Below are positions 14,506 to 62,770 of a DNA stretch of 64,000 nucleotides, piece after piece. The stretch covers positions 1,860,001-1,924,000 of the forward strand of contig NZ_LT629689.1 in NCBI RefSeq assembly GCF_900102035.1, given 5' to 3'. This stretch comes from Pseudomonas extremaustralis (lineage in GTDB: Bacteria; Pseudomonadota; Gammaproteobacteria; Pseudomonadales; Pseudomonadaceae). Below the pieces are notes generated by a model. It made no database searches, was not told the origin of the DNA, and saw only the letters and a program-made list of their open reading frames with translations. Position numbers and translations under genes: made by a program. The stretch's first letter is position 1. The number at the start of each line of letters is the position of its first letter.

Positions 14506-15762
14506 TTGAGTTCGCAGAAAACCGTGACCGTTACACCGCCCAATTTCCCCCTCAATGGCAAGGTCGCGCCCCCCGGCTCCAAATCCATTACCAACCGTGC
14601 CCTGCTGCTGGCCGCCCTGGCCCAGGGCACCAGCCGCCTGAGCGGCGCCCTGAAGAGCGATGACACCCGCCACATGTCGGTGGCCCTGCGCCAGATGGGC
14701 GTGACCATCGACGAGCCGGACGACACCACCTTCGTGGTCACCGGCCACGGCAAGCTGCAGTTGCCGACCCAACCGCTGTTCCTCGGCAATGCCGGCACCG
14801 CCATGCGCTTTCTCACCGCCGCCGTGGCCACCGTGCACGGCACCGTGGTCCTGGATGGCGATGACTACATGCAAAAACGCCCGATCGGCCCGCTGCTGGA
14901 CACCCTGCGCCAGAACGGCATCCGGGTCGACAGCCCGACCGGTTGCCCGCCGGTGACCGTGCACGGCGTGGGCAAGGTCCAGGCCAAGCGCTTCGAGATC
15001 GACGGCGGCCTGTCCAGCCAGTACGTGTCAGCCCTGCTGATGCTGGCGGCATGCGGCGAAGCGCCGATTGAAGTGGCGCTGACCGGCAAGGACATCGGCG
15101 CCCGTGGCTATGTGGACCTGACCCTGGACTGCATGCGGGCCTTCGGCGCCCAGGTCGAAGCCGTCGACGACACCACCTGGCGCGTCGCCCCCACCGGCTA
15201 CACCGCCCACGATTACCTGATCGAACCCGACGCGTCCGCCGCCACCTACCTGTGGGCCGCTGAAGTGCTGACCGGTGGCCGCATCGACATCGGCGTCGCC
15301 GCACAAGACTTCACCCAACCGGACGCCAAGGCCCAAGCCGTGATCGCCCAGTTCCCGAACATGCAGGCCACGGTAGTCGGCTCACAGATGCAGGACGCCA
15401 TCCCGACCCTCGCGGTGCTGGCCGCCTTCAACAACACGCCGGTGCGTTTCACCGAACTGGCCAACCTGCGGGTCAAGGAATGTGATCGCGTGCAGGCGCT
15501 GCATGACGGACTGAATCAAATCCGCCCGGGCCTGGCGACCATTGAAGGCGACGATCTGCTGGTCGCGGCCGACCCTGCGCTGGCCGGCACCTCGTGCAAT
15601 GCCCTGATCGACACCCACGCCGACCACCGCATCGCCATGTGCTTTGCCCTGGCGGGGCTGAAAGTCGCGGGCATCCGCATCCAGGACCCGGACTGCGTGG
15701 CCAAGACCTATCCTGAGTACTGGAAGGCCCTGGGCAGCCTGGGTGTGCAACTGAACAACTGA
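14506..15762 (+). CDS. aroA: 3-phosphoshikimate 1-carboxyvinyltransferase (EPSP synthase), monofunctional
   Basis: AroA makes 5-enolpyruvylshikimate-3-phosphate from shikimate-3-phosphate and PEP. The 418-residue protein has the PEP/S3P site GSKSITNRALLLAALA, LGNAGTAMRFLTAA, the central DGGLSSQYVSALLMLA and the C-terminal DTHADHRIAMCFALAG. A TTG at 14506 is the best start: AGGAG lies 9 bp before it, giving MSSQKTVTVT. An in-frame TTG at 14485 has no such site. The residue after GTAMR is F102, where E. coli AroA has P101. Many pseudomonads also carry an AroA domain fused to a TyrA-like prephenate dehydrogenase, so this stand-alone enzyme may be a second copy. An IS110 element lies 20 bp downstream. 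Confidence 0.95.
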   Translation: MSSQKTVTVTPPNFPLNGKVAPPGSKSITNRALLLAALAQGTSRLSGALKSDDTRHMSVALRQMGVTIDEPDDTTFVVTGHGKLQLPTQPLFLGNAGTAMRFLTAAVATVHGTVVLDGDDYMQKRPIGPLLDTLRQNGIRVDSPTGCPPVTVHGVGKVQAKRFEIDGGLSSQYVSALLMLAACGEAPIEVALTGKDIGARGYVDLTLDCMRAFGAQVEAVDDTTWRVAPTGYTAHDYLIEPDASAATYLWAAEVLTGGRIDIGVAAQDFTQPDAKAQAVIAQFPNMQATVVGSQMQDAIPTLAVLAAFNNTPVRFTELANLRVKECDRVQALHDGLNQIRPGLATIEGDDLLVAADPALAGTSCNALIDTHADHRIAMCFALAGLKVAGIRIQDPDCVAKTYPEYWKALGSLGVQLNN

Positions 15763-15775
15763 CAACCACAGCAAC

Positions 15776-15783
15776 TGTGGGAG
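15776..15783. repeat. Left stub of the REPIN split by the IS110 element
   Basis: The eight bases TGTGGGAG directly abut the insertion element. Joined to position 16952 they restore the 5' arm of the REPIN whose remainder lies at 16952-17043. The restored 24-base arm then differs from the complement of the 3' arm at one base only. Confidence 0.75.
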
Positions 15784-15786
15784 ATT

Positions 15787-16749
15787 CTATGTTGCAGGAC
15801 AACCCTGCAACGGCCGATTCGGTTGGTATTCGCTCTGGTTTTTCATCAGGGCGAACGCCACCCGTGCGAGTTTTCGGGCAAGGATTACCAGGGCCTGAGT
15901 CTTCTTGAATCCTCTGGCCAGGTACCCTTCATAAAATGGTTTCCAGGTCGCTGAACGACAGGCGGCCATAGCCGAGTTGTGGGCCAGACGCCGTATTTCC
16001 GGATCCCCTTTCTTGGTCAGCCTGCGACTCCCCGTCTTTTTTCCCGAGTCATCGACCCTCAAGTCCATGCCCAAAAAAGCGATGAAGGCATTGCTATCCT
16101 TAAACTCGCCACGCAAAAAAGCCGTCGCAAATCCGGTTGCCGTCAGTACTCCGACGCCTTCAATGGCCTTGCAACGCTCGATATTTTCGGCGGCTCCAGC
16201 CTCTTTGCTCAGGTCGCGCAGCTTTTTTTGAATGGCCAGATCCGAGTGCTTAAACGTCTCCATCAGACATTTCAGCTCTTCTTCCAGGCGCGGCTCATCG
16301 GCCCAGCTCTGAGCCAGACTGACGCGCGCCTTGATCAGTGCTGCCCGTCGATGAAGCAGACTTTGCAGGGCCTTGTAAGCCTTGGGTGGCGGGCTCCAAG
16401 CGCGTAACCCACCCTGTTCATGCGCCAGATATCGAGCTAGAAGACGAGCATCGCACGGATCATTTTTAGCTCGTTGGCCGACACCGCGACGGTAATGACT
16501 CAAGCGATAACCGTCCACGACGTAGACCTGATGACCCAACTCATGGGCCAACTCAACCGTGTCCAAGTGGTAAATATTGGTGGCCTCGACGGCAATGCCA
16601 CTTTGGGCGGGCAGCGTCTTGAGCCAGCGTTTGAGTGCTGCTCGATTATTGGGGATGGCTTGTGTGGTTTGCAGATCGGCACGATAGACGAGCACCTCAG
16701 CCTTGGCCACATCAACACCCACGACCGTTTGCGAAGTAAGGATTGTCAT
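15787..16749 (-). CDS. IS110-family transposase (DEDD/serine recombinase)
   Basis: This 320-residue protein has the two Pfam parts of IS110 recombinases. The N-terminal RuvC-like DEDD domain shows VGVDVAKAEV (first D), AVEATNIYH (E) and KNDPCDARLLARYLA (D-D). The C-terminal Transposase_20 domain shows IEGVGVLTATGFATAF and FLGMDLRVDDSGKKTG. It also shows GDPEIRRLAHNSAMAA, where the S is the likely nucleophile. The reading frame is intact. The last codons contain a perfect small inverted repeat (GTTGCAGG/CCTGCAAC, 15791-15811). Recombinases of this family are guided by a bridge RNA encoded in the element; see the noncoding region 16750-16949. Confidence 0.93.
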   Translation of the reverse strand: MTILTSQTVVGVDVAKAEVLVYRADLQTTQAIPNNRAALKRWLKTLPAQSGIAVEATNIYHLDTVELAHELGHQVYVVDGYRLSHYRRGVGQRAKNDPCDARLLARYLAHEQGGLRAWSPPPKAYKALQSLLHRRAALIKARVSLAQSWADEPRLEEELKCLMETFKHSDLAIQKKLRDLSKEAGAAENIERCKAIEGVGVLTATGFATAFLRGEFKDSNAFIAFLGMDLRVDDSGKKTGSRRLTKKGDPEIRRLAHNSAMAACRSATWKPFYEGYLARGFKKTQALVILARKLARVAFALMKNQSEYQPNRPLQGCPAT

Positions 16750-16949
16750 GACGAATCCTCGGAGCTAGGGTTTAAGAGCTTGTTGGGGTCTACCGTTGCG
16801 CTGACTTGTCTCTATCGTCGGCCTTGCCGATGAATTCCTTATTGGCGCTTTTGGGTAGAAGGGGTGGGACGAAGTCTCCCACGGTCTGTACTGGTTAGAG
16901 TCAGAATCGGGCTTTTAGTCCCACCCACCCCTTCAAGTCTAAACATACA
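16750..16949 (-). ncRNA. Candidate bridge RNA of the IS110 element
   Basis: This noncoding region is upstream of the transposase, where IS110-group elements encode their bridge RNA. In the transcript direction a strong stem (16918-16934 against 16858-16870, 13 bp with a small bulge) encloses a loop of about 45 nt. The 5' side of that loop has AAGCCCGAT (16906-16914), resembling the left target AAGCTCGCT. The 3' side has CCGTGGGAG (16876-16884), matching the complement of the right target CTCCCACAG at 8 of 9 positions. A second stem-loop (TCGGC-AAG-GCCGA) follows. It is flanked by GGAATTC and AGACAAG, the latter resembling the complement of the left element end. Structure and guides were read by eye. 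Confidence 0.6.
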
Positions 16950-16951
16950 AG

Positions 16952-17043
16952 CGAGCTTGCTCGCGAAGATCGTCAACGATGACGTGGGCACCCTGGATAT
17001 ATGCGGTGCCCTGGCGTTCTTCGCGAGCAAGCTCGCTCCTACA
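16952..17043. repeat. REPIN, main part (GAGCGAGCTTGCTCGCGAA type)
   Basis: Two REP arms in inverted orientation flank a spacer of about 55 bp. The 3' arm ends in TTCGCGAGCAAGCTCGCTCC followed by TACA. The 5' arm lost its first eight bases to the IS110 insertion (see 15776-15783). The interior includes GTCGTCAACGATGACG-like sequence shared with the REPINs at 41183 and 52007. Confidence 0.85.
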
Positions 17044-17066
17044 TTGAAACCTTGCCGGGAGCGCCG

Positions 17067-17456
17067 ATGACCATTCGCCAACCCTGCCCACCCGGCGCCT
17101 GTGTGTGCGAGCGCGAACACCTGTTGGAAACCCCCGGCGCCGACCTGCGCATCCTCAACCTGACGCGCCAGGAAGAAAAACGCCTGATCGAACGTCTCGA
17201 AAACCTGCAGAGCCTGCAGGACCTTGAACGCATGCAGCAACGCATGTACGAGCTACTGGGCATTCGCGTGCACATCGCGCCGGGGCATACCGAGGTCAAG
17301 AGCATGCGCGGCATCCAGATCGTCATCGACGACCTGCCGGGCCTGTGCCGCAAGACCCGGCAATCGATCCCGGCAGCGATTCGTCGAGGCATGGAGAAAC
17401 GCCCGGAAATCGCCTACCGCCTGCTGGATGCCCACGACCTGTTTCGCGAAGGTTGA
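17067..17456 (+). CDS. Conserved hypothetical protein, Cys-containing N-terminus
   Basis: This 129-residue protein was not assigned to a family. The N-terminus reads PCPPGACVCERE, three cysteines spaced C-x5-C-x-C, which could bind metal. The middle (EEKRLIERLENLQSLQDLER) is a probable coiled coil. The C-terminal half is a compact alpha/beta segment ending YRLLDAHDLFREG. The ATG at 17067 has GGGAG about 6 bp upstream, and codon use is like that of the neighbours, so it is probably a real gene. It lies 1 bp from the convergent quinone reductase gene. The insertion of an IS110 element upstream separates it from aroA. Confidence 0.7.
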   Translation: MTIRQPCPPGACVCEREHLLETPGADLRILNLTRQEEKRLIERLENLQSLQDLERMQQRMYELLGIRVHIAPGHTEVKSMRGIQIVIDDLPGLCRKTRQSIPAAIRRGMEKRPEIAYRLLDAHDLFREG

Positions 17457-62620: not shown

Positions 62621-62666
62621 GGGTGTCTCCTGGCTTCTTGTAAAGGGCCCTGGAGACGGAAAAACA

Positions 62667-62689
62667 AAACCCGCCTCTAGGGCGGGTTT
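62667..62689 (-). terminator. Attenuator-type terminator in the ilvA leader
   Basis: A perfect 9-bp stem AAACCCGCC/GGCGGGTTT with loop TCTAG precedes, in the minus direction, TGTTTTTCC. It lies between the leader peptide and the ilvA start, where a terminator would be pointless unless conditional. The GGCGGG at 62709-62714 (minus strand) in the end of the leader frame can pair with the CCCGCC of the terminator arm as an antiterminator. Confidence 0.75.
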
Positions 62690-62704
62690 GGGTACAGCCG
62701 TGCG

Positions 62705-62770
62705 CTATCCCGCCAAATGAGGAATGGCGGTAATAATGCTTGGCTGGGTCGGGAAGGTTTGAAATGTCAT
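62705..62770 (-). CDS. Candidate ilvA leader peptide
   Basis: A 21-codon frame encodes MTFQTFPTQPSIITAIPHL and then AG before TAG. It contains Ile-Ile-Thr-Ala-Ile and four Thr, the end product and substrate of the enzyme encoded downstream. It ends 15 bp before the terminator hairpin at 62667-62689. No strong ribosome-binding site is visible. It is too short for ordinary gene finding and rests on context: leader, antiterminator, terminator, structural gene. Confidence 0.65.
   Translation of the reverse strand: MTFQTFPTQPSIITAIPHLAG

Follow-up and report, generated by a model that had tools for sequence, protein, structure and literature searches.

ISPpu9 and ISPpu10 were reported in 2006 to insert into REP sequences at the junction of REP bases 9 and 10, ISPpu10 generating a 2-bp repeat (PMC1525189). 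The bridge RNA of IS621 has been demonstrated by biochemistry and cryo-EM (PMC11208160, PMC11208158), with handshake positions described in PMC11208158. PMC11208160 also reports a REP target for IS621 and covariation of guides with targets in 5,511 pairs, and gives predicted bridge RNA pairings for ISPpu10 and ISPa11, including target and donor pairing of ISPpu10 (Extended Data Fig. 10c); a REP-directed seekRNA is reported for ISPa11 in PMC11187229. A natural REP-directed guide is already anticipated in print for IS621, ISPpu10 and ISPa11. A literature search, made largely outside subscription papers, returned no other account of bridge RNAs from the ISPpu10-like clade. We describe here what is very probably a real RNA-guided element of this known kind; we are highly confident that the feature in its left end is the bridge RNA of an ISPpu10-like IS110 element, based on its position, boundaries and predicted structure, the covariation of guides and targets, the recombinase family and the conserved catalytic residues.

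The window, a 64,000-nucleotide stretch of a 6.67-Mb Pseudomonas chromosome, carries an IS110 element on the minus strand downstream of a gene that ends at 15762, which we take from its product to be aroA. We placed the element ends by aligning the flanks of four copies from the same genome, each with different flanks; the resulting ends fit REP halves and define a whole element of 1,168 bp, including one core dinucleotide (15784–16951, −). The ends are fixed by a common CT on the minus strand (AG on the plus strand) at 15782–15783, the right-end core, and at 16950–16951, the left-end core. The right target, CTCCCACAG, extends from its core to lower coordinates, and the left target, AAGCTCG, occupies 16952–16958. 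The interrupted REP is divided between AACTGTGGGAG at 15773–15783 (+) and a remainder that lies, together with an inverted partner completing a REP pair, at 16950–17042 (+). Consistent with these boundaries, the equivalent locus in the relative G017 (L230) has an uninterrupted REP pair ahead of the same next gene, the right side of its first REP being CTCCTACA instead of CTCCCACA; the equivalent locus in G004 (L229) has no REP. The four copies in the window's genome encode identical recombinase proteins, have identical left ends, and interrupt four REPs at one and the same junction with a 2-bp CT/AG repeat (4/4). Their left halves are AAGCCCC-CT in three cases and AAGCTCG-CT in the window's copy, and their right halves are CT-CCCACA in three cases and CT-CTCACA in one. 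The element ends, CATAGAAT-CT and CT-TGTATG, include a short subterminal inverted repeat, ATA/TAT, as in the IS621-type IS110 group, and the noncoding ends are long on the left (200 bases from core to start codon) and very short on the right (3 bases from stop codon to core). A search of the same genome for gene-less copies of the left end returned only the four elements themselves. Elsewhere in the window, the Pseudomonas sRNA P9 (Rfam RF00624, 86 bits) matches at 62666–62740 (−).

The recombinase gene (15787–16749, −), whose stop codon is the one 3 bases from the core, encodes a 320-amino-acid protein with DEDD and Transposase_20 domains. Its Pfam matches, PF01548 and PF02371, correspond to a DEDD RuvC-like domain and an IS110 domain with the catalytic serine, and residues D13, E55, D97, D100 and S235 align with the catalytic residues of IS621. 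Matches in the PDB include the solved transposases of IS621 (E 9e-21) and ISCro4 (E 2e-21), and the NCBIfam model "IS110 family RNA-guided transposase" scores above its cut-off. The closest named copy is from P. rhodesiae (99% protein identity), and the name ISPpu10 is attached to two relatives, at 75% and 64% identity, among the 120 listed of 1,616 found. By its sequence, the recombinase belongs with IS621-type IS110 proteins, with its catalytic residues conserved.

The long left noncoding end (16750–16949, −) is the putative source of the bridge RNA, which would span approximately 16785–16935. The initial annotation had proposed that this region folds into a 13-bp stem around a loop whose two sides match the two halves of the REP target. 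Both the positions and the matches were borne out: the left target guide (AAGCCCG followed by AU, AAGCCCGAT; 16906–16914, −) matches its REP half at 7 of 9 bases, with AU opposite the CT core such that one of the two core bases is matched, and the right target guide (CCGTGGGAG / CCGUGGGAG; 16876–16884, −) matches at 8 of 9, with seven contiguous bases, both core bases included, complementary to CTCCCAC. A stem-loop (CUG...CAG; 16885–16904, −) separates the guides. The enclosing stem, with predicted arms at 16918–16934 (5' arm, −) and 16858–16870 (3' arm, −), is also predicted by our folding, with 14 pairs in place of the 13 claimed: the segment 16842–16937 (−) folds with both guides enclosed at −33.9 kcal/mol (z −2.0), 8 of 200 shuffles being at least as good, and the entire 200-nt region has a folding z of −2.57. 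Immediately 3' of the right guide, at the target-loop handshake position, is an A (16875, −) that is invariant in a 35-row alignment and would pair with donor T7 (...GAAT-CT).

The second hairpin of the initial annotation, offered there as a possible donor loop, is present between GGAATTC (16832–16838, −) and GACAAG (16805–16810, −). Its stem would be formed by GCGC at 16845–16848 (−) and GCGC at 16798–16801 (−). The candidate left donor guide, AAUAAGGAAUUC (16832–16843, −), is nearly invariant and contains AGGAAU, which resembles the donor end TAGAAT; in the candidate right donor guide, GACAAG, the bases ACAAG are complementary to CTTGT of the left end, and the next base is a U at the donor-loop handshake position (16804, −). 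A search of 4,227 Rfam families at the gathering threshold identified no family at the locus, and a promoter and terminator scan of 15700–17100 identified no sigma-70-like site. We also observed that CUUG and GGG at the 5' end of the RNA (16929–16937, −) can pair with the 3' arm of the target stem, and that in 35 of 35 aligned rows they have alternative partners, CCC and CAAG, near the start of the recombinase gene (16779–16788, −); this alternative pairing is a possible translation switch.

For the single sequence, a left match of 7/9 was reached in 22% of shuffles and a right match of 8/9 in 2.0%, while both matches in the expected order, 15–45 nt apart, occurred in 2 of 5,000 (0.04%). Taken by itself, this sequence is suggestive, with the weight mostly on the right guide. 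The resemblance of the guides to REP halves would also be expected if they were decayed REP fragments inside the element, alike by homology and not by pairing. We rejected this explanation, which we consider extremely improbable, on the grounds that the two halves stand apart, the first in direct and the second in complementary form, with a conserved stem-loop between them and a predicted stem around them.

To compare the bridge RNA region among relatives, we searched the genus at E ≤ 1e-60, which gave matches in 49 of 398 genomes (at most five candidates were scored per genome), and assembled 124 copies from 46 Pseudomonas genomes (120 stretches plus the four copies described above). The left end begins with CTTGTATG in all 124. 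Folded one by one, all 48 distinct left ends (with the copy L173 excluded) are predicted to form a target-loop stem of 11–18 pairs. Of 1,920 shuffles, 323 also reached 11 pairs or more and 109 reached the observed energy. The stem arms are G- and C-rich and about one shuffle in six gives a stem of that size, so the stem alone is weak evidence and it is its constancy that counts. When 35 of these 48 left ends were aligned with MAFFT, RNAalifold recovered the target-loop, inner and donor-loop stems, with double changes in just 6 of 29 pairs; the low number reflects target-stem arms that vary in length and are misaligned. On visual inspection, the left flanks of the 124 copies look like REPs, L199 being among the exceptions; 85 of the 124 flanks passed a simple inverted-repeat test, which overlooks imperfect REP palindromes.

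Three loci in this sample have unusual arrangements. The left end of L173 (genome G091) is just 127 nt long, with an intact target loop and the whole donor loop absent; no other of the 5 candidates scored in G091 (out of 7) passed E ≤ 1e-60, and L173 is possibly stranded through the missing donor loop. The left flank of L199 (genome G185) is not a REP and repeats the right flank, with CTCCCACATTTGGTAGCT on both sides, which suggests a rearrangement after insertion. L163 and L164 (genome G066) are tandem copies approximately 190 bases apart with identical left flanks; from the sequence, this looks like a duplication of the element and its flank.

We next compared, for each copy, the seven guide bases left of the core with the seven target bases adjoining the element. 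Of the 124 copies, 50 had identical guide and target 7-mers, 41 had a single difference, 12 had two differences and 21 had at least three. Across 18 distinct left guide 7-mers, guides matched their own targets at a mean of 5.33 of 7 positions, as compared with 3.92 for swapped targets; no permutation out of 100,000 fitted as well, a figure that is not a strict probability because the genomes are related. Changed guides sit in correspondingly changed REPs: AGGCUCG in AGGCTCG (G062, G111 and others), AGCCGCC in AGCCGCC (G080), UAGUUCG in AAGTTCG (G094), and CAAUUCG in AAATTCG, CGATTCG or GAATTCG (G018). That the guides of relatives follow their flanking targets had been set beforehand as the test on which the proposal would stand or fall, and the covariation, like the stable stem shared among relatives, upholds it. 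The left guide tracks the REP variant that its element occupies, and this comparative test is far stronger than the match within any single sequence.

The left guide departs from IS621 at the core. Across the 124 copies, the bases opposite the left CT core are AU in 80, CA in 32, CU in 11 and AA in one, such that the guide pairs with both core bases in 11 copies, with one in 112 and with none in one; among the 22 distinct guide strings, 17 pair with exactly one core base, and the odd base is in every case an A. Single bulges also affect the fit. With bulges disallowed, 21 of the 124 copies match at only 1–4 of 7 left positions, among them the 10 copies in G382, G128 and G005, which reach 5–7 of 7 solely with one U bulged beside the core; a single bulged base improves the guide fit in several genomes. 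Pairing with both core strands is strongly preferred by IS621 (PMC11208160), and here the right guide pairs with both core bases but the left guide mostly does not. The methods of that paper select guides with CT core guides, which implies that other kinds occur in the family, and we treat the left core mismatch as variation inside the IS621-type family. A more speculative reading, which we think rather unlikely, is that left guides of the ISPpu10-like clade are made to pair with one core base, with a deliberate A, and that this and the single bulges constitute a distinct pairing rule. If so, placing an A opposite the core on the bottom strand would leave that strand available to the second exchange, with insertion and excision then differing from those of IS621.

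The right guide could be read in all 124 copies and is far less variable. It is CGUGGGAG in 116 copies, where it faces CTCCCACA in 108, CTCCTACA in four, CTCCCACT in two, and CTCTCACA and CTCCCACG in one each. The guide UGUGGGAG faces CTCCCACA in two copies and CTCCCACT in one, CGUAGGAG faces CTCCTACG in two copies (G094), and UGUAGGAG faces CTCCTACA in one (G355); the two G080 copies have AGUGAGAG and a right end that could not be placed, and their right target was left out of the counts. Matches between right guide and target amount to 8/8 in six copies, 7/8 in 111 and 6/8 in five, with two copies without a call. The two guide variants with the changed GUAGGAG, found in three copies, each have a matching right target. 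The right guide is not strict, however: of the five CTCCTACA targets, four lie opposite the unchanged CGUGGGAG guide, a pairing that involves a G-T wobble.

The handshake base that follows CAAG in the donor loop was readable in all but one copy. It is C in 116 copies, with G as target base 7, and G (G166/C7) in both copies from G080, with C as target base 7; G080 is the sole genome in which guide base 7 is changed. In the window's lineage (5 copies, G000 and G004) the handshake base is U, and four of the five copies have C as target base 7, the fifth having G; since U does not pair with C7, the change brings no improvement for this lineage. None of the 35 aligned rows shows a change in the donor-loop stem (GCGC/GCGC) or in the candidate donor guides GAAU and CAAG. 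Compared with the predicted circle junction, the match of ACAAG to CTTGT is exact and that of AGGAAU to TAGAAT is partial, the loop being too invariant for covariation.

These comparisons bear on whether the structure might be merely a 5'-UTR that controls translation, with the protein reading the REP hairpin and the guide matches being incidental. In ISPpu9, the 244-nt 5'-UTR is reported to be structured, to be a likely mask of the ribosome site and to have an antisense RNA (PMC8450116), and the ability of CUUG/GGG at the RNA 5' end to pair also with CCC/CAAG near the start codon would fit such a role. A pure regulator would not follow the REP variant, yet guide and target covary, and the rare changes in the right half and at the handshake position agree with that covariation. 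We consider this explanation very unlikely, and we rejected recognition of REP by protein alone because guide and target covary. A sigma-70 consensus scan for an antisense RNA at the window element gave no hit.

For the bridge RNA that we favour, the steps of transposition can be pictured by analogy with IS621. The element would excise as a circle joined at the CT core, and the left end would be transcribed. The second (donor) loop would pair with the circle's own junction, and the recombinase would exchange strands at CT, such that the circle would go in between the REP halves. At the junction of the window element, the promoter hexamers match weakly, at 4 of 6 positions each. Among 50 distinct junctions, the −35-like hexamer that fits best ahead of TATGNT agrees at 4–5 of 6 positions in 14, at 3 in 35 and at 1 in one; with the genomic flank in place of the junction, 3 of 6 positions match in 6 of 124 copies and fewer in the remainder.

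We also examined the REP repertoire of the window's genome. Among the REP halves counted in this host, AAGCCCCCT is the most frequent, while the guide of the window element fits AAGCCCGCT best, so all four copies have one non-core left mismatch; from these sequences, the guide appears to lag behind the host repeats. The best-fitting left half, AAGCCCG, adjoins CCCACA at 20 intact sites, none of which is used by the four copies; four insertions are too few to test a guide preference for the best host sites, and the absence from AAGCCCG is uninformative. There are 202 intact sites of the AAGCCCC type, AAGCCCCCTCCCACA, and the left half AAGCCCC is found at three of the four copies. With the left half AAGCTCG, CCTACA follows at 167 intact sites (AAGCTCGCTCCTACA) and CCCACA at one. 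The window's copy interrupts an AAGCTCG-class REP beside CCCACA, as the right guide predicts; if the right half were irrelevant, the chance of this would be about 2 in 169, for a single event noticed post hoc. One could argue from the vacant best-matching sites, from the abundance of AAGCCCCCTCCCACA and from the wobble tolerated at CTCCTACA in four relatives' copies that the bridge RNA is real but that the preference for REPs owes more to host supply than to guide specificity, with loose targeting. This would refine the main reading, and we rate it as possible though rather unlikely, given that the 167 AAGCTCGCTCCTACA sites hold none of the four copies and that guide and target covary across genomes. 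Under guided targeting, among the REP targets AAGCCCGCTCCCACA, AAGCCCCCTCCCACA, AAGCTCGCTCCCACA and AAGCTCGCTCCTACA, the first is predicted to be the best and the last the poorest.

A second element of the IS110 superfamily, IS1111-like, is present in the same genome in six copies (L021–L026; L021:1149–2606). It has an open frame of 366–375 amino acids, subterminal repeats TGGACTCGCCC/GGGCGAGTCCA and a long downstream noncoding end, and it occupies REP sites of the form GTA/TAGGAGCGAGC in five copies and GTA/TAGGAACGAGC in one. The downstream noncoding part, read in one copy (L021), contains CGCTCCTAC and then TCGCGAGCT; by analogy, this order would agree with the arrangement of guides described for IS1111 seekRNAs. 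The two elements seem to use different common REP types of the genome, which with four and six copies is no more than suggestive.

Overall, the choice of REP by the window element appears to be written in its RNA, a conclusion that comparison supports beyond mere resemblance. The idea of a REP-directed guide put forward in the initial annotation is thus supported, although it is not new and the left guide misses one core base. The 18 natural left-guide variants, with known REP variants, provide a test set for how many bulges and mismatches, at the core and elsewhere, natural bridge RNAs tolerate, and they record in nature how guides follow, or lag behind, host repeat families.

Among known systems, ISPpu10 (IS110; P. 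putida KT2440) resembles the window element, as judged from its published description and from the name of the two relatives, in its REP insertion, 2-bp repeat and predicted bridge RNA; the host differs, and possibly the guide. ISPpu9 (with the sRNAs Asr9 and Ssr9) is likewise a REP inserter with an AG repeat and a long structured 5'-UTR, but it was studied as a case of translation control (PMC8450116). Ssr9, which is partly complementary to Asr9 and also occurs as orphan copies, might be a mini-element that consists of a bridge RNA alone. ISPa11 (IS1111 type; P. aeruginosa) shares a REP-directed RNA guide with the window element, but its RNA lies downstream of the gene with the guide order reversed (PMC11187229), and in this respect the second element, L021–L026, is closer in look to ISPa11 than the window element is. 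IS621 (E. coli) shares with the window element the CT core, the long left and short right ends, the order of a target loop and then a donor loop (putative in the window element), the REP target and the DEDD+S residues; the window element differs in having a right guide of 7 nt instead of 4 and a left guide that matches one core base.
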